From the NCBI GenBank assembly GCA_030620925.1, contig JAUXIQ010000112.1:1-6689 (forward strand): a stretch of 6,689 nt of DNA, read 5' to 3'. This stretch comes from JAUXIQ01 sp030620925 [NCBI: Nitrospinota bacterium]. Its GTDB lineage: Bacteria; JAUXIQ01. The notes under the pieces are model-generated. The model had not been told where the DNA came from. It saw only the letters and a list, made by a program, of their open reading frames with translations, and did not search any database. Below, one piece after another: positions 227 to 6,637 of the stretch (position 1 is its first letter; each line of letters begins with the position of its first letter). The position numbers and the translations under genes are program-made.

Positions 227-1882
227 ATGAAAGTCTCAGGTGCCATATCTCGGCGTAAAATGTTGAAGGGTAGAGGTTTGCAGGTGGGGGCCGGCGTTGC
301 CGCGGCCCTCGTAGCGGTGCCGGTGTTGGTCATACTATCCTCTCTGTTCAAACCCACCCAGGATATATGGGGGCACCTCCTCGAAAACGTCCTACCCCGC
401 ATTTTTGTTAACACGGTGAGCCTCGTAATCGGAGTATCCTTCGGTACGCTGATATTGGGCGTTGCCCTGGGATGGCTCACCGGAGCGTGCGATTTCCGGG
501 GCAGGAGGATTTTTTCGTGGGCACTCCTGCTGCCCCTTGCCATTCCAACCTACGTCATGGCCTTCGTATATCTGGGGTTGTTCGACTTTGCCGGCCCCTT
601 GCAGTCCGCGCTGGGAGACATGTTCCCCCGGAGTAATCCGCGCCTGCCTAACATCCAATCGGCAACCGGAGTGATAATAGTAATGACTCTGGCTCTCTAT
701 CCCTACGTTTACCTGCTTGCCCGAAGCGCTTTCATGACCCAGGGGTTGACCTCAATTGAGGCGGCCCGGTCGTTGGGTGCAAGCCCTGTCGGGGCTTTTT
801 TCAGGGTGGTTCTGCCAATGGCCCGGCCCTGGATAGTAGGCGGTCTGATGCTGGTGGTCATGGAAACCCTCGCTGATTTCGGGGCGGTTTCTATTTTCAA
901 TTTTGATACGTTTACCACGGCGATATATAAATCCTGGTTCGGCTTCTTTTCATTGACCGCGGCGGCGCAGCTTTCATCCATACTGGTGTTCATGGTGTTG
1001 ATAGTGGCGCTGTTGGAGCAGCGCCTTCGTCGTCAACAGCGGTACACCGGTGGTGGCGGATCGACTCCGAGTATGGCTCGCATCCAGCTCTCCGGTGTCA
1101 AGGCCTGGGCGGCTGTTGTGTTTTGTCTCCTTGTGCTTTTAACGGCATTCGCCGTTCCCTGCCTGCAGCTCATCGTTTGGAGCGCCGATTCATTCGGGAT
1201 GGAGTTCGGGACACGCTATTTGGGGTTGGTGGGCCGCACGCTTTTCCTGGCTCTGGCCGCCGCCCTGATTACTTGTTCGACAGCGCTCCTTCTGGCTTAC
1301 GCCAGACGATATCATCCGGAGCCGTTCACATTCGGCCTGACCCGTGTGGCTACCATCGGTTACGCCCTTCCCGGCACGGTGCTGGCGGTTGGCATCTTCA
1401 TACCCGTGGTTTTCACGGACAACTTTATTTCCCAAATAGTTCGCTCTGTTTTCGGCTATGACCTGAAGCCCCTTTTACAGGGGACGGTGTTTATAATGCT
1501 AATCGCCTACCTTGTGAGATTCACCGCTGCTGGATTCAATTCCGTGGACAGCGCCATGCAAAGGATCGCCCCTGGTATAGATGATGCATCAACACTTTTG
1601 GGAGCAAAGGGCCTGGCCCTCTTAAGACGCGTCCATCTTCCCATTCTCAAATCGGGCATTTTGACGGGATTGACGCTTGTTTTCGTGGACGTAATGAAGG
1701 AGATGCCCATTACGCTCATGACCAGGCCCTTCGGTTGGGATACTTTGGCTGTGAAAATTTTTGAGTTCACTTCGGAAGGGGAATGGGAACGTGCGGCTTT
1801 ACCGGCGGTGGCAATCATTCTGACCGGGCTCTTCCCTGTCATACTCCTTACGAGACACAACGAAAAACAGTTCGCAACCTGA
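227..1882 (+). CDS. fbpB: Iron(III) ABC transporter permease, fused two-domain type (FbpB family)
   Basis: This 551-aa integral membrane protein has two homologous permease halves in one chain, the usual FbpB/SfuB/HitB layout and length. About twelve hydrophobic segments are visible, roughly at residues 24-40, 62-84, 98-118, 147-165, 203-224, 245-265, 293-318, 336-358, 373-396, 418-436, 475-490 and 521-542. Each half has an EAA-type coupling loop for the ATPase: EAARSLGASP from E178 and DDASTLLGAKG from D452. Family-typical stretches are ETLADFGAVSIF (213-224) and VDVMKEMPITLMTRPF (487-502). The halves are joined by a charged, glycine-rich linker around 265-285 with TGGGG at 274-278. The ATG at 227 is preceded by GGAG at 220-223 with only 3 nt between, which is tight. 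The in-frame ATG at 260 has no better site, so 227 is kept. The ATPase gene follows after 17 bp. Iron is the likely cargo by family and context; the sequence does not prove it. Confidence 0.9.
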   Translation: MKVSGAISRRKMLKGRGLQVGAGVAAALVAVPVLVILSSLFKPTQDIWGHLLENVLPRIFVNTVSLVIGVSFGTLILGVALGWLTGACDFRGRRIFSWALLLPLAIPTYVMAFVYLGLFDFAGPLQSALGDMFPRSNPRLPNIQSATGVIIVMTLALYPYVYLLARSAFMTQGLTSIEAARSLGASPVGAFFRVVLPMARPWIVGGLMLVVMETLADFGAVSIFNFDTFTTAIYKSWFGFFSLTAAAQLSSILVFMVLIVALLEQRLRRQQRYTGGGGSTPSMARIQLSGVKAWAAVVFCLLVLLTAFAVPCLQLIVWSADSFGMEFGTRYLGLVGRTLFLALAAALITCSTALLLAYARRYHPEPFTFGLTRVATIGYALPGTVLAVGIFIPVVFTDNFISQIVRSVFGYDLKPLLQGTVFIMLIAYLVRFTAAGFNSVDSAMQRIAPGIDDASTLLGAKGLALLRRVHLPILKSGILTGLTLVFVDVMKEMPITLMTRPFGWDTLAVKIFEFTSEGEWERAALPAVAIILTGLFPVILLTRHNEKQFAT

Positions 1883-1899
1883 TCTTGAGGAGAATAAAG

Positions 1900-3024
1900 A
1901 TGCACCCCTTGCTGGAAGTCAAGAACATATCGAGTTCCTACGGCAATAAATTGGCCATAAATGATGTAAGCGTCAATCTGGAAAAAGGTGAAATCGGCTG
2001 CTTGCTGGGACCAAGCGGTTGCGGGAAGACCACCCTCCTCAGAACGATAGCAGGTTTTAAGGACATCGTCTCTGGAGATATATTGATAGAGGGCAGACGG
2101 GTCGCGGCGGAAGCGTTTTCCGTTTCACCTGAAGAGCGGGGAGTGGGGATGGTGTTTCAGGACTACGCCCTCTTTCCTCATTTGAACGTCCAGGAAAACG
2201 TGGCCTTCGGCCTTAAACATATGAAAAGGTCTGAGAAGAAGAGGAGAGTCGGCGACCTGCTTAGTGTTATAGGTCTCGAGCAGGTCAAACACAAATACCC
2301 CCACGAATTGTCAGGAGGCGAGCAGCAACGCATAGCCCTGGCAAGGTCCCTTGCACCCAGACCCCGATTGTTGCTTCTCGATGAGCCGTTTTCCAACCTG
2401 GACGTCAACATGCGCGAGCTTCTGTCAATGGAGGTGCGTAAGATCATCAAGCAGCAGAACACCACGGGGCTGGTGGTCACGCACAACCAGCACGAGGCCT
2501 TCGCCATGGCGGATAAAATCGGTGTCATTTCATGCGGTCGCATGCTGCAGTGGGACAGCGCCTACAATCTTTACCACAGGCCGTGCGGTTCCATGGTTGC
2601 CTCTTTTGTGGGAGAAGGTGTGCTGTTACCGGGGAGAGTCCTTGACGATCATCTGGTGGAATGCGGTCTGGCAGTCCTCAAAGGCCGATTTTCTTCGTCC
2701 TGTCCGGTGGGTGCCATGACGGACATCCTGATACGGCCGGAGGATGTCGTTCATGAGGATGAGAGTCCCCTGAGAGCTGTAGTGGTTCATAAAACCTTCC
2801 GGGGGCCAAACATTATTTATACTCTGTGTCTAAGCTCAGGTGATGCTGTCCTGGCTCTGTTCCCCAGCCATTACAGGCATGAGATTGGCGAGGAAATAGG
2901 TATCCGGCCGGAGGTGAAAGACATAGTTCTTTTCAAGAGGGACCATGAGGAATTAAGACGCCCTCAGGAAGTCAACCCGAAATCCATGCTTCACAATGAG
3001 TCGGAATGTCATTATAATGTTTAA
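1900..3024 (+). CDS. fbpC: Iron(III) ABC transporter ATP-binding protein (FbpC family)
   Basis: This 374-aa cytoplasmic ATPase would power the preceding permease. All ABC motifs are intact: Walker A GPSGCGKTT at 37-45, Q-loop glutamine Q87 in VFQDYALFPHL, signature LSGGEQQR at 137-144, Walker B LLLLDE at 157-162, D-loop SNLD at 165-168 and H-loop H195 in VTHNQ. A C-terminal TOBE-like domain follows (about 240-345, with ILIRPEDV at 276-283), as in FbpC/FutC and other CUT1/MOI-type ATPases. A polar tail of about 28 residues after the TOBE core ends in HNESECHYNV. The start at ATG 1900 is chosen because GAGGAG at 1887-1892 sits 7 nt upstream; the frame is open upstream to an ATG at 1783, but that would overlap the permease gene by 100 bp. 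The last codons also contain a candidate promoter for the next gene. The ferric-iron assignment rests on the family and operon; the ATPase itself does not set specificity. Confidence 0.9.
   Translation: MHPLLEVKNISSSYGNKLAINDVSVNLEKGEIGCLLGPSGCGKTTLLRTIAGFKDIVSGDILIEGRRVAAEAFSVSPEERGVGMVFQDYALFPHLNVQENVAFGLKHMKRSEKKRRVGDLLSVIGLEQVKHKYPHELSGGEQQRIALARSLAPRPRLLLLDEPFSNLDVNMRELLSMEVRKIIKQQNTTGLVVTHNQHEAFAMADKIGVISCGRMLQWDSAYNLYHRPCGSMVASFVGEGVLLPGRVLDDHLVECGLAVLKGRFSSSCPVGAMTDILIRPEDVVHEDESPLRAVVVHKTFRGPNIIYTLCLSSGDAVLALFPSHYRHEIGEEIGIRPEVKDIVLFKRDHEELRRPQEVNPKSMLHNESECHYNV
2990..3018 (+). promoter_or_regulatory. Candidate sigma70-type promoter inside the 3' end of the ATPase gene
   Basis: TTCACA at 2990-2995 matches five of six bases of the -35 consensus. 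It is separated by exactly 17 bp from a perfect -10 hexamer TATAAT at 3013-3018. Transcription would begin near 3025, just after the ATPase stop codon, giving the amidohydrolase gene at 3180 its own promoter with a leader of about 155 nt. It overlaps coding sequence, but the -10 lies in the last few codons, where AT-rich sequence begins. This is pattern matching only; activity has not been shown. Confidence 0.5.
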
Positions 3025-3179: not shown

Positions 3180-4016
3180 GTGGCTGAGATGGTAAAAATC
3201 GCAGGTGTTCAGATGGACTCCAAGATAACCCAGAATGGCCTCAATCTGGAGAGGATAATGGACTATCTCCAGGAGGCGGCCGGAAACGGGGCGAAGATAG
3301 TGGTATTTCCCGAGTGCGCCCTCACCGGTTACTGCTTTAACGACCTGGAAGAGGCCAGACCCTACGCCGAGCCCATCCCCGGGCCCAGCACCGAAGCCAT
3401 GGGCGCGCTTTGCGCCAAGCTGGATGTTTATGCGGTGGTGGGCATGCTGGAGGCCGACGGCGAAGAAGTGTTTAACGCCGCCGCGCTGCTGGGGCCGCAA
3501 GGGCTGGTGGGCTCCTACAGGAAAATTCATCTCCCCTTCCTGGGCGTGGATCGCTTCGTAGCGCCGGGGGACAGACCCTTTTCGGTTTATCAAACAGGCG
3601 CCGGCAGGTTAGGCATTAACATCTGCTACGATGCGAGCTTTCCCGAAAGCTCGCGCATCATGTCCCTCCAGGGGGCAGAGCTAATCGCCCTGTCCACCAA
3701 CTGGCCCCAGGGGGTGGAGATAGTCCCCGATCACGTGATCAATACCCGCGCCCTGGAGAACAGAATAAACTATATCGCAGTTAACAGGGTCGGCGAGGAG
3801 CGAGGCTACCGTTTCTTCGGGCATGGCAAAGTGGTGGGGGCCAACGGGGCCACCATTGTAGCGGCCGGGTCCGAGGAAGAAATATTCTACGCCGAAGTAG
3901 ACATGGGGGCCGCCCGCGATAAGAAAGTGGTGACAATCCCCGGCCAGTGGGAGGTGGACAGGATGAACGACCGCCGCCCGGAGCTCTACGGCGAGCTTGT
4001 CCAACCCAACCAGTAG
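3180..4016 (+). CDS. Nitrilase-superfamily carbon-nitrogen hydrolase (amidase-like, substrate unknown)
   Basis: This 278-aa cytoplasmic enzyme is a full-length CN_hydrolase domain with no signal peptide. The catalytic triad of the superfamily is visible: Glu45 in VVFPECALTG, Lys115 in YRKIHLPF and Cys149 in INICYDASFPE. Typical flanking motifs follow: STNWP (172-176), then RALENRINYIAVNRVGEE (190-207). The C-terminal DRRPELYG (264-271) resembles the end of many amidase and carbamoylase members of the superfamily. These enzymes hydrolyse a C-N bond through a cysteine acyl-enzyme, usually releasing ammonia from an amide, carbamoyl or nitrile group. The branch, and so the substrate, cannot be told by eye. 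The GTG start has a strong ribosome binding site. The gene stands alone between a 155-bp AT-rich leader and a convergent helicase gene, so context gives no pathway clue. It is clearly richer in GC than the iron operon upstream. Confidence 0.88.
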   Translation: MAEMVKIAGVQMDSKITQNGLNLERIMDYLQEAAGNGAKIVVFPECALTGYCFNDLEEARPYAEPIPGPSTEAMGALCAKLDVYAVVGMLEADGEEVFNAAALLGPQGLVGSYRKIHLPFLGVDRFVAPGDRPFSVYQTGAGRLGINICYDASFPESSRIMSLQGAELIALSTNWPQGVEIVPDHVINTRALENRINYIAVNRVGEERGYRFFGHGKVVGANGATIVAAGSEEEIFYAEVDMGAARDKKVVTIPGQWEVDRMNDRRPELYGELVQPNQ

Positions 4017-4084: not shown

Positions 4085-6637
4085 TCATTTGTTGCCGTCG
4101 AAAAATTCCCGGACCGCCTTAAGCACTTCGTCTACAGTGCCCACAACGGTATTGCAGGGGGGAAGGGATCTGATGAACAGCTTACCGTAAGACTTTTCCA
4201 CGATCCTCCTGTCCAATATGAGCACCGCACCGCTGTCCGTGGCCTTGCGGATCAATCTCCCGAATCCCTGTTTGAACTTGATGACAGCCTGAGGCACGAT
4301 ATACTCGAGGAAGGCGTTTCCCCCCTGTTCCTCGATTTGCTGGCATCGGGCTTCCAGCACGGGCTCGGTGGGCACGCGAAAGGGCAGCCTGGCAAGGATC
4401 ACGCATTCCAGCGCCTCTCCTTCCACGTCCACCCCGTGCCAGAAGCTGTCTGTGGCGAACAGGACGGAGGTCTTGTCTCTCTTGAAAGCCTCCAGGAGCT
4501 GATGGCGTGGGCGCTGGCCCTGCTTGAGGGCGGTAATCCCCATCGCTGCAAGAGGTTCCTGCAACTGGTCGTGCACCCAGTCCAGCGACCTGTAGGAGGT
4601 GAAGAGGACGAAAGCTTTTCCGCCCGTGGCCTCCAATGTGCTGTATACGACGTCTTTCAGTGAGCCGTCGAAATTTTTCTCATTCGGTTCCGGTATGTCC
4701 GTGGGTATACCTATGATGACCTGGGTCTGGTAATCGAAGGGGGATGGGAGGAGCAGTTCTTCCATCCTGTCCTCGTCCACCAGGTCCAGGCCGAGGCGCG
4801 ATTTGAGATGCTGGAAGCTGTTGTCCACGGTGAGGGTCGCTGAGGTGAGGGCCACGGTGGGTATTCGGTCGAAGAGGTTTTCCACCAGGTCGTTAGCCAC
4901 ATCCACAGGGGAAGAGAGGATTCGGACAATTTTTGCGCCCCGTTCTCCCATCCTCCCTTCCACCCAGGCCACCTCGTTTTTGCCTCCACCGGAGAGGACT
5001 TGTAGCAGGTCGGCCCCCACGGCATCCAGCCTGTCGGCGGATACCCTCAGCTCGAAGCGTTGATCGGCCACCGGTTTTCCCACCGCCTCTTCGAGTTTTC
5101 TCGAGAGGCCGGACAGTTCTCGTGCCAACGATTTCAACTTCGCGGCGAGCTCGGAAACCTCAGTGTCCAATAAATCACTCCATCCCCGGGTGCCCACCAC
5201 CCGGGGCGTGAGGCGAAGCCTGAGCTCATCGTATTCCTGTCCTGTTTGGCGTGCGGTCTCTTCCAGAACGGCGTCGAGAGTCGCATTGGAAGTGGTCACC
5301 AATTGGCGAACGGTTGGCATGAGGCTCCTTTCCACAGTCCTCACAATGTCGTCCAGCGTCCCGCCGCCGTCCCTTAACTTGCGCAGTGCGGCGAGGAGGT
5401 AGGGCAGCAGGCCTTTTCCTCCCCCGGAGGGGCTGTACAGTCTGCCCAGCATGCGGGTCATACCCAGCCTGGTTATCTGAGTGCCGAAATATGAAGTGGC
5501 AACGTCTTCTATGGTGTGCGCTTCGTCTATGATGAGGCGTCTGTATGGCGGGAGGATGGCCAGCGCGGAGTAGGTGCCGGTGAGCCTGCGCAGGGCCGTA
5601 TCGGCGAAAAGGAGATGATGGTTCACCACCAGCAGGTCCGCCGCCGCCGCGTTTCTGCGAGCTGCGTTGACGAAGCAGCGCTTCTGGTCAGGGCAGCGGG
5701 TGCCCATGCAGTAGTCGCTCTCGGAGCAAAGTTTTTCCCATAGGGCGAGGGGCGGGACGAAGCTGAGCTCGGTGCGGCAGCCGGTGGCGGTATTCTTAAC
5801 CCACTCCAGGAGGGTGTTCAGCGTCTCCATCTCGTCCGGTTCGGCCAAAAGCTCGGGCTCCCGCTCCAGTTGGGTGGTCTTCCTCAAGCAGACGTAATTT
5901 CCCCGGCCTATTACCTGCACCGCCTTGAATTTCATATCCAGGGCTTTCTGCAGGAAGGGGATATCTTTGTGAACCAGTTGCTCCTGCAGGTTGATGGTGT
6001 TTGTGGAAATCACCACTCTCTCCCCGTTGTTCTTTGCCCAGTGGACGGCGGGAAGTAGATATGCCATAGTCTTACCCGTTCCGGTGCCCGCCTCCACCAG
6101 GGCTATGCCGTTGCGGTTAAAGGCCCGGGCCGCGGCTTCGGTCATTTTGCCCTGCTGGGGACGGTGTTCATAACCGCTCAATTTCTGTGAGATCGTTCCG
6201 CCGGGCTCCAGGAGGGAAGCTAGTTCGACGGGGTCCAGGTGCTCGGCTTGCTTTTCCTTGAAGGCTTCCACCACCACATAGGCGGAAGTAGCGTCGTTGT
6301 CTATGATGTAAAATCCCACACCGCAGTTGCCCAGGGCCGAAGCCGTGCTGATATCCGCATCAGAAGGTGTGAGTTCGCCTGAAGGGTGGTTGTGGATGAC
6401 CACCTCTCCCCGGGAGGCCGCCTCCATGATGGCGGGGGCCGAGACCTCGTTCCCCCGCGCCGCCACCCGCACCTTCCGCACGCGGTCGCCTTCGGGGAGC
6501 TTCCCAACAAAGAAAACCTCGTTGCCTCCCGTCCCGGCTATCTCCTTCCTTATGGACTCGATTGCCTGCGGTGCGATAAGTTCCTCTATGTTCTCCATGT
6601 CGTACCTTTTGCTGAATTCCGGGGCGAAGTTGTCCAT
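4085..6637 (-). CDS. dinG: DinG/XPD-family iron-sulfur DNA helicase with N-terminal JAMM (RadC-like) domain
   Basis: This 850-aa protein has two parts. Residues about 20-126 form a JAB/JAMM metalloprotease-like domain: Glu64 in GNEVSAP, HNHPSG at 82-87 (zinc ligands His82 and His84), then Ser92 and Asp95, the E-HxHPxG-SxxD pattern of RadC and JAMM proteins. Residues about 150-850 form a superfamily 2 XPD-like helicase: Walker A AGTGTGKT (183-190), iron-sulfur cysteines C250, C310, C315 and C321, DEAH (371-374), TSATL (598-602), FWHGVDVEG (732-740) and QGFGRLIR (790-797). The last three cysteines have gaps of 4 and 5 residues, as I recall for E. coli DinG. Such helicases unwind DNA 5'-3', including R-loops and damaged forks. 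ATG 6637 is used because GC-rich third positions, typical of coding, begin there right after AT-rich sequence. The ATG at 6598 (Met14) has a better ribosome site and would also keep both domains. It converges with the amidase gene, with a 68-bp gap. Confidence 0.9.
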   Translation of the reverse strand: MDNFAPEFSKRYDMENIEELIAPQAIESIRKEIAGTGGNEVFFVGKLPEGDRVRKVRVAARGNEVSAPAIMEAASRGEVVIHNHPSGELTPSDADISTASALGNCGVGFYIIDNDATSAYVVVEAFKEKQAEHLDPVELASLLEPGGTISQKLSGYEHRPQQGKMTEAAARAFNRNGIALVEAGTGTGKTMAYLLPAVHWAKNNGERVVISTNTINLQEQLVHKDIPFLQKALDMKFKAVQVIGRGNYVCLRKTTQLEREPELLAEPDEMETLNTLLEWVKNTATGCRTELSFVPPLALWEKLCSESDYCMGTRCPDQKRCFVNAARRNAAAADLLVVNHHLLFADTALRRLTGTYSALAILPPYRRLIIDEAHTIEDVATSYFGTQITRLGMTRMLGRLYSPSGGGKGLLPYLLAALRKLRDGGGTLDDIVRTVERSLMPTVRQLVTTSNATLDAVLEETARQTGQEYDELRLRLTPRVVGTRGWSDLLDTEVSELAAKLKSLARELSGLSRKLEEAVGKPVADQRFELRVSADRLDAVGADLLQVLSGGGKNEVAWVEGRMGERGAKIVRILSSPVDVANDLVENLFDRIPTVALTSATLTVDNSFQHLKSRLGLDLVDEDRMEELLLPSPFDYQTQVIIGIPTDIPEPNEKNFDGSLKDVVYSTLEATGGKAFVLFTSYRSLDWVHDQLQEPLAAMGITALKQGQRPRHQLLEAFKRDKTSVLFATDSFWHGVDVEGEALECVILARLPFRVPTEPVLEARCQQIEEQGGNAFLEYIVPQAVIKFKQGFGRLIRKATDSGAVLILDRRIVEKSYGKLFIRSLPPCNTVVGTVDEVLKAVREFFDGNK
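6605..6610 (-). promoter_or_regulatory. Possible ribosome binding site for an alternative helicase start at 6598
   Basis: On the - strand AAAAGG lies 6 nt before the in-frame ATG at 6596-6598 (Met14). No comparable site precedes the first ATG at 6635-6637. If this is the real start, the protein is 837 aa and loses only residues before the JAMM domain. The match to the Shine-Dalgarno consensus is partial. Confidence 0.3.

Follow-up and report, generated by a model that had tools for sequence, protein, structure and literature searches.

A DinG-type helicase with an N-terminal RadC-like JAMM domain in a Nitrospinota bacterium and its recurrence in other bacteria

Described relatives of the fused protein

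In this study, we analyzed a gene for a DinG-type iron-sulfur helicase that bears an N-terminal JAMM domain, carried on a 6,689-nucleotide stretch of DNA (hereafter the window, meaning the whole stretch) from the Nitrospinota bacterium JAUXIQ01 sp030620925. The closest described system is the "RadC-like DinG" class, which section 3.8 of Cheng 2025 (PMC11981726) names, models with zinc and describes as unstudied, with Desulfuromonas soudanensis as an example; fusions of RadC to DinG/RAD3 helicases had been noted in 2017, together with a nuclease proposal. The window protein shares with this class the order of domains, a RadC-like domain followed by DinG helicase domains, as well as the residues reported for it, namely a Glu that opens the first strand, together with a His pair and an Asp (here the conserved E40, H82, H84 and D95), and it belongs to a class already in print. 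An earlier note on this DNA had supposed that similar fusions exist with no known function, in agreement with Cheng 2025; among the open-licence papers listed by the searches, no experimental study of the fusion was found.

Other known proteins resemble one part of the fusion and differ in the rest. RadC/YicR (PF04002; 2qlc) has the same JAMM fold, the HNHPSG..PS..D motif and a Glu in register, but the fused domain has no counterpart of the N-terminal half of RadC, which we take to be HhH, or of its HPRE(V) stretch: hhalign aligned only the C-terminal half of RadC and left the HPRE stretch as a gap. The full-length RadC models of NCBIfam scored far below their cut-offs (27.9 of 180 bits and 22.5 of 133.85). 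The role of RadC in DNA repair is described as disputed (Cheng 2025, PMC11981726; the 2017 paper), and RadC on archaeal plasmids, other than as a DinG fusion, is reported in PMC9674854. E. coli YoaA and DinG share the helicase region, the former as the best NCBIfam match and the latter as the best solved structure, but both are without a JAMM domain. ExoDinG of the S. aureus type (PDB 8zef) likewise has an additional enzyme domain at the N-terminal position, although it is an exonuclease there and a JAMM domain in the fusion. According to the conclusions of Cheng 2025 (PMC11981726), bacteria often encode several DinG-like homologues.

Domain assignment and recurrence of the fusion

The earlier note had read the first 130 residues as a JAMM/RadC-type domain joined to a DinG helicase, and this reading was borne out by profile searches, predicted fold and recurrence. 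The Pfam family RadC (PF04002) matched residues 63-106 with 27.7 bits in the whole protein and 31.5 bits in residues 1-130 (cut-off 22.1), whereas Prok-JAB, the second family put forward for these residues, stayed under its cut-off of 25 (15.1 and 19.0 bits, respectively). A domain profile of 84 sequences, compared with PDB sequences, found RadC 2qlc at E 1.7e-7 and matched an A. fulgidus JAMM protein weakly (E 0.05). In addition, H82-N-H84-P-S-G-...-S92-x-x-D95 has the spacing of the JAMM motif HxHx7SxxD; the JAMM residues were defined in PMC300881, according to which Asn between the histidines can supply equal bracing (HNH vs HSH).

The expectation of a JAMM fold was likewise upheld by an AlphaFold2 model of the domain (79 sequences), which was confident, with a predicted local distance difference test score (pLDDT) of 89 and a predicted TM score (pTM) of 0.76. 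In this model Glu40 lies just ahead of the first long strand; a later strand ends with His82 and His84, and the helix after it contains Asp95. The top solved match in Foldseek was RadC 2qlc (E 1.8e-5), with CSN5, the proteasome lid, Caldiarchaeum Rpn11 and a bacterial BubCD enzyme among the following ranks, and all 28 rows at E <= 0.001 were titled RadC, Rpn11, CSN5, BubCD, PfJAMM1 or were other JAMM/MPN-bearing entries. VIA-align gave tied Z scores for Rpn11 4o8x (Z 9.3, root-mean-square deviation 2.7, 103 aligned), BubCD 9ea4 (9.1, 3.0, 108), RadC 2qlc (8.9, 2.9, 99), the A. fulgidus JAB1/MPN protein 1oi0 (8.7, 2.6, 90) and PfJAMM1 (Z 8.5).

The remainder of the protein is a complete XPD/DinG iron-sulfur helicase, as the earlier note had also stated, with Walker A, DEAH, Helicase_C_2 and the four cluster cysteines C250, C310, C315 and C321, all four of which are kept in 72 of 76 full-length proteins, the window's included. 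Helicase_C_2 and DEAD were above their Pfam cut-offs and DEAD_2 was below (14.9 bits vs 21); the top NCBIfam match was the YoaA model with 592 bits, under its cut-off of 680. The best solved structure for the full-length model (pLDDT 91.7, pTM 0.86) was E. coli DinG 6fwr, and S. aureus DinG 9ii8 was a close second. Judging from its family, the helicase would have 5'-3' polarity.

We searched a general sample of 386 diverse genomes, including that of the window and chosen irrespective of the domain, with a profile of the domain (E <= 1e-10). The domain was present in 47 genomes, with one match per genome and invariably beside DinG helicase sequence, and no stand-alone copy of this JAMM subfamily was found in the sample. 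Of the 47 copies, 44 lay within frames of more than 800 amino acids; the remaining three were two contig-end fragments entering helicase sequence (G043 and G048) and one in which the frame changes within the helicase (G295). The fusion therefore recurs in 46 genomes besides that of the window, in 43 of which it forms a single long frame; two of the others hold contig-end fragments, and in the last the frame changes. This recurrence excludes a chance origin. A second scan, of named genomes, yielded at least 490 relatives among at least 586 pattern matches. The best 80 loci, some of them from Geomonas strains, were kept, comprising 41 from Thermodesulfobacteriota, 8 from Myxococcota, 8 from KSB1 (by title), 4 from Hydrogenedentota, 1 from Hydrogenedentes (by title), 4 from Acidobacteriota, 2 each from Spirochaetota and Calditrichota, and 1 each from Bacillota and Actinomycetota, with the remaining 8 lacking a phylum label. 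Among them were 70 complete fused frames, 7 truncated where the contig or stored stretch ends and 3 with a frame change in the helicase, and relatives were about 31-56% identical to the window protein. An artefact of mis-assembly or of a mis-called start is extremely improbable: no support for it was found, and the architecture recurs in the 70 complete open reading frames of the 80 named-genome loci and in the 46 further genomes.

In a quick helicase tree of 43 fused rows, chosen from those at hand, and 20 others, the fused rows needed two changes, and nine long-frame helicases without the JAMM domain formed a separate group with a support of 91, several of them with a start motif that is presumably DnaQ-like. 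Two of 65 proteins had been dropped, their longest frame not being the helicase; with 21 of 60 inner branches open and several long end branches, a single origin of the fusion is neither shown nor excluded on this tree. A phage or plasmid origin was rejected: residues 1-130 matched one plasmid and one phage record, and the domain alignment matched eight weak viral-contig loci. Separately, in three loci of Acidobacteria (L063 7926-10527, L069 1956-4554 and L095 7911-10437) the fused gene is split over two overlapping frames, with the shift in the same direction and inside the helicase at positions that are not all equal, which may reflect an assembly indel, decay or recoding.

Conserved residues, partner genes and candidate functions

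The zinc motif had been assigned Glu64 as its Glu in the earlier note. This residue is E in 10 of the 47 sampled genomes and 27 of 76 full-length proteins, whereas Glu40 is E in 44 of the 47 and in all 76 aligned full-length proteins, and in a profile alignment to five RadC proteins (hhalign, 97% probability) Glu40 stands opposite the RadC Glu. The variability of Glu64, together with this register, rules it out as the catalytic residue; Glu40 fits the Glu at the first-strand start in the description of Cheng 2025, so the correction concerns the earlier reader and not the paper. The other motif residues stood as proposed, with H82 and H84 each kept in 46, S92 in 45 (Thr in the other two) and D95 in all of the 47 genomes, counted from 54 rows minus 7 duplicate loci. 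Because IHNHP[SG]G was imposed by the search pattern in the 78 scan-derived rows of one alignment, motif conservation was taken from the 47-genome sample alone, the profile of which makes no demand on Glu40, H82, H84, S92 or D95; it was built from pattern-selected rows, and highly degenerate copies may escape it. The JAMM/MPN+ signature E-Xn-H[S/T/N]H-X7-S-XX-D lies within the JAMM fold, both in the sequence and in the predicted structure. Based on this fold and the conserved E/HxH/S/D set, the domain very probably forms a metal site, in which Glu40 would be the general base, His82, His84 and Asp95 would bind the metal, presumably zinc, and Ser92 would serve the intermediate.

The helicase query matched all 47 carriers, and a second DinG-like helicase was found in 1 of them (G189) among the matches listed, compared with at least one DinG-like helicase in 160 of 339 non-carriers (Fisher p 5e-11, genomes counted as independent, although they are phylogenetically non-independent, G129 and G265, for example, being of one genus). 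These counts assume identical 386 genomes in the domain, helicase, SprT and HolC searches, and up to two candidates per genome were scored, so that second helicases may be undercounted. Two or more helicase matches were obtained in G189, where they represent a second gene, and in G305 and G372, where the fused frame itself was matched in pieces. Two or more matches were also obtained in G190 and G295, with the second outside the matches listed; each was counted as one helicase gene, the whole helicase lying in one frame at L155 and in two frames at L173. In a set of 59 genomes, the window's included, with all carrier candidates scored, none of 9 carriers had a second DinG-like helicase and 23 of 50 non-carriers matched one, both at E <= 1e-20. 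A second helicase being rare in carriers, the fusion seems to serve as its lineage's DinG and to be the only DinG-like helicase of the genomes that carry it. The window's genome also encodes an ordinary stand-alone RadC (L001, G000:C231:4647-5003), and the fused domain is accordingly no substitute for RadC.

We propose that the protein would be the cell's DinG-type iron-sulfur helicase bearing an N-terminal JAMM zinc hydrolase. The DNA substrates of the DinG helicase family are known, and the motor would move along single-stranded DNA where forks stall or R-loops or lesions occur, and the JAMM domain would most likely cut a peptide or isopeptide bond of a protein that is encountered on this DNA or is attached to it. 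The earlier note had proposed a similar coupling of helicase action to peptide or isopeptide cleavage, which stays conjectural. A competent hydrolase cleaving DNA-bound protein is our preferred reading, which we advance tentatively. Against a nuclease, a peptidase acting on DNA-bound protein is somewhat more likely, as all residues of the JAMM peptidase set are retained, Ser92 among them, and DinG-family helicases have been linked to protein obstacles; dinG mutants of E. coli, for instance, are reported as hypersensitive to aza-C DNA-protein crosslinks (PMC4437897, citing its reference 52). If the domain is a protease, it might be a dedicated bacterial enzyme against protein roadblocks or crosslinks.

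Several observations weigh against this reading, and some of them bear on other roles of the domain. First, the peptidase substrate is purely conjectural, and no conserved neighbor that would name one was found at the 80 loci. The JAB domains of the RadC clade are described as being without the ubiquitin-tail groove and residues, and as possible nucleases (PMC3482391; the 2017 paper). In that case the JAMM domain would be a nuclease or nucleic-acid-processing domain in place of the DnaQ exonuclease of ExoDinG or the endonuclease of EndoDinG, as was proposed in 2017 from its positional equivalence to nucleases fused to DinG/RAD3-like helicases, and the near lack of another DinG-like helicase among the matches listed would suit a fusion that may replace ExoDinG, DinG or YoaA. 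We regard a nuclease as doubtful, though deserving attention: the DALI matches given in Cheng 2025 (PMC11981726) are metalloproteases, with no nucleases among them. The residues retained are, moreover, the exact JAMM peptidase set, Ser92 included, and by title all 28 Foldseek rows (E <= 0.001) are of JAMM/MPN type. We know of no proven nuclease activity for RadC or a JAMM domain, and a nuclease here would be, to our knowledge, the first JAMM nuclease.

Second, catalytic residues have been lost in 3 of the 47 genomes, from two lineages, all of which retain the fusion. G129 and G265, of one genus, have lost Glu40 and have Thr for Ser, with His and Asp retained; G171 (L169) has lost both His and has Asp for Glu, and its intact family-mate G309 (L156) makes the two a natural inactive/active pair. 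JAMM complexes often contain inactive MPN domains, and these losses are consistent with a structural or docking module, metal-stabilized and non-catalytic, which might, for example, bind a replisome partner in the way that YoaA binds HolC. HolC (PF04364) occurred in 5 of the 47 carriers (G043, G129, G189, G229 and G265), and it was commoner there than in non-carriers, 6 of 339 of which were over the cut-off (p 0.006) and 9 of 339 at E <= 0.001; the window's genome (89% complete) yielded no HolC. Docking is nevertheless an unlikely sole function, as the retention of Glu40, Ser92 and Asp95 in 44, 45 and 47 of 47 genomes, at about 31-56% identity, would be unexpected for it. Loss of Glu40 coincides with HolC in G129 and G265, two of the five HolC carriers, which is only suggestive as they are of one genus.

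The five HolC carriers contradict the statement in Cheng 2025 that HolC is absent from organisms of the RadC-like DinG class, and HolC absence does not define this class. HolC binding by YoaA was mapped to its C-terminal Arg619-Thr620 (PMC8378479), a pair required for it. By a simple pattern, a look-alike was present in 1 of 76 fused proteins and absent from the C-terminus of the window protein, so that Cheng 2025 may still be right that HolC is not bound by the fused protein. As far as the text of Cheng 2025 was available, the HolC carriers, the losses of catalytic residues and the one-per-genome pattern are additions to it. In two further genomes with divergent copies, G017 and G166 (L011 and L166), all five residues are kept and an insertion of six residues follows HNHP, ahead of the Ser and Asp of the motif.

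A further precedent for protein removal, in favor of the peptidase reading, comes from eukaryotes. FANCJ, which we take to be an XPD-family helicase, works with SPRTN, a metalloprotease that is not a JAMM enzyme. FANCJ unfolds the crosslinked protein and enables SPRTN to cut it (PMC12279946, citing its reference 37), and by analogy only, the fusion might be a counterpart in one polypeptide of what in eukaryotes are two, with a motor that unfolds the DNA-bound protein and a JAMM domain that cuts it, a crosslink protease needing no ubiquitin. This is improbable on present evidence, but if true it would mean a dedicated DNA-protein-crosslink protease in bacteria across many phyla. Third, the dinG mutant mentioned above is reported not to be hypersensitive to tight non-covalent complexes or quinolones (PMC4437897), and E. 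coli DinG matters for crosslinks yet has no JAMM domain. SprT-like genes showed no association with the fusion, being neither depleted nor enriched (14 of 47 carriers vs 88 of 339 non-carriers at E <= 0.001; 8 of 47 vs 52 of 339 over the cut-off). The fusion as a replacement of SprT-like proteins was rejected on this ground; nothing indicates that a crosslink protease was replaced, and the crosslink proposal gets no help from these genes.

With a RadC-type domain paired to a partner of known type in 47 of 386 genomes, the question of what the RadC/JAMM clade cleaves becomes testable, and the genomes that lost catalytic residues may serve as natural controls.

Features and surroundings of the gene

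The contig of the window is one of 445 in its assembly, and the features of the gene are given in Table 1. Translation probably starts at Met14 (base 6598) rather than Met1, because relatives begin near Met14 and AAAAGG lies just upstream of it.

Table 1. Positions of the fusion gene and its parts in the window
Feature	Coordinates	Strand	Remarks
JAMM-DinG fusion gene	4085..6637	minus	single 850-amino-acid frame, read from 6637 to 4085; 850 codons + stop counted from Met1
JAMM/MPN (RadC-like) N-terminal domain	6224..6598	minus	about residues 14-138; fold match spans residues 18-124
Glu40 codon, predicted catalytic Glu	6518..6520	minus	44/47 genomes; hhalign register with RadC Glu
JAMM metal motif (predicted) H82-N-H84-P-...-S92-x-x-D95	6353..6394	minus	46/46/45/47 of 47 (H82/H84/S92/D95)
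DinG/YoaA-type XPD-family helicase	4088..6190	minus	residues 150-850
Helicase landmarks			Walker A K189; DEAH 371-374; iron-sulfur cysteines 250/310/315/321; Helicase_C_2 667-827

No flanking cluster occupied a fixed place in most of the 80 loci, many of which are short, so that neighbors are undercounted. The widest cluster (36 members at 24 loci) was scattered up- and downstream and was possibly merged by shared domains, and the steadiest neighbors were one open reading frame upstream at 8 loci and another downstream at 6 loci, each at most 300 bases away and the former on the strand of the fusion gene. The longest member of the upstream cluster (L045 6911-7919 and 7 other loci) contains the stretch SHGHTDH, which we take to be typical of metallo-beta-lactamase-fold nucleases. 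LexA/SOS boxes were sought with six patterns in the 80 upstream stretches, for which start sites were guessed, with a weakly negative outcome of 0-1 matches, not above shuffled sequences.

In the window itself, a gene for a carbon-nitrogen hydrolase of the nitrilase superfamily (3180-4016) is convergent with the fusion gene. Positions 227-3024 hold ABC transporter permease and ATPase genes, the top NCBIfam matches of which, all below cut-off, were 2-aminoethylphosphonate, polyamine and similar transporter models, and the cut frame at 2-190 is, at a guess, a substrate-binding protein.

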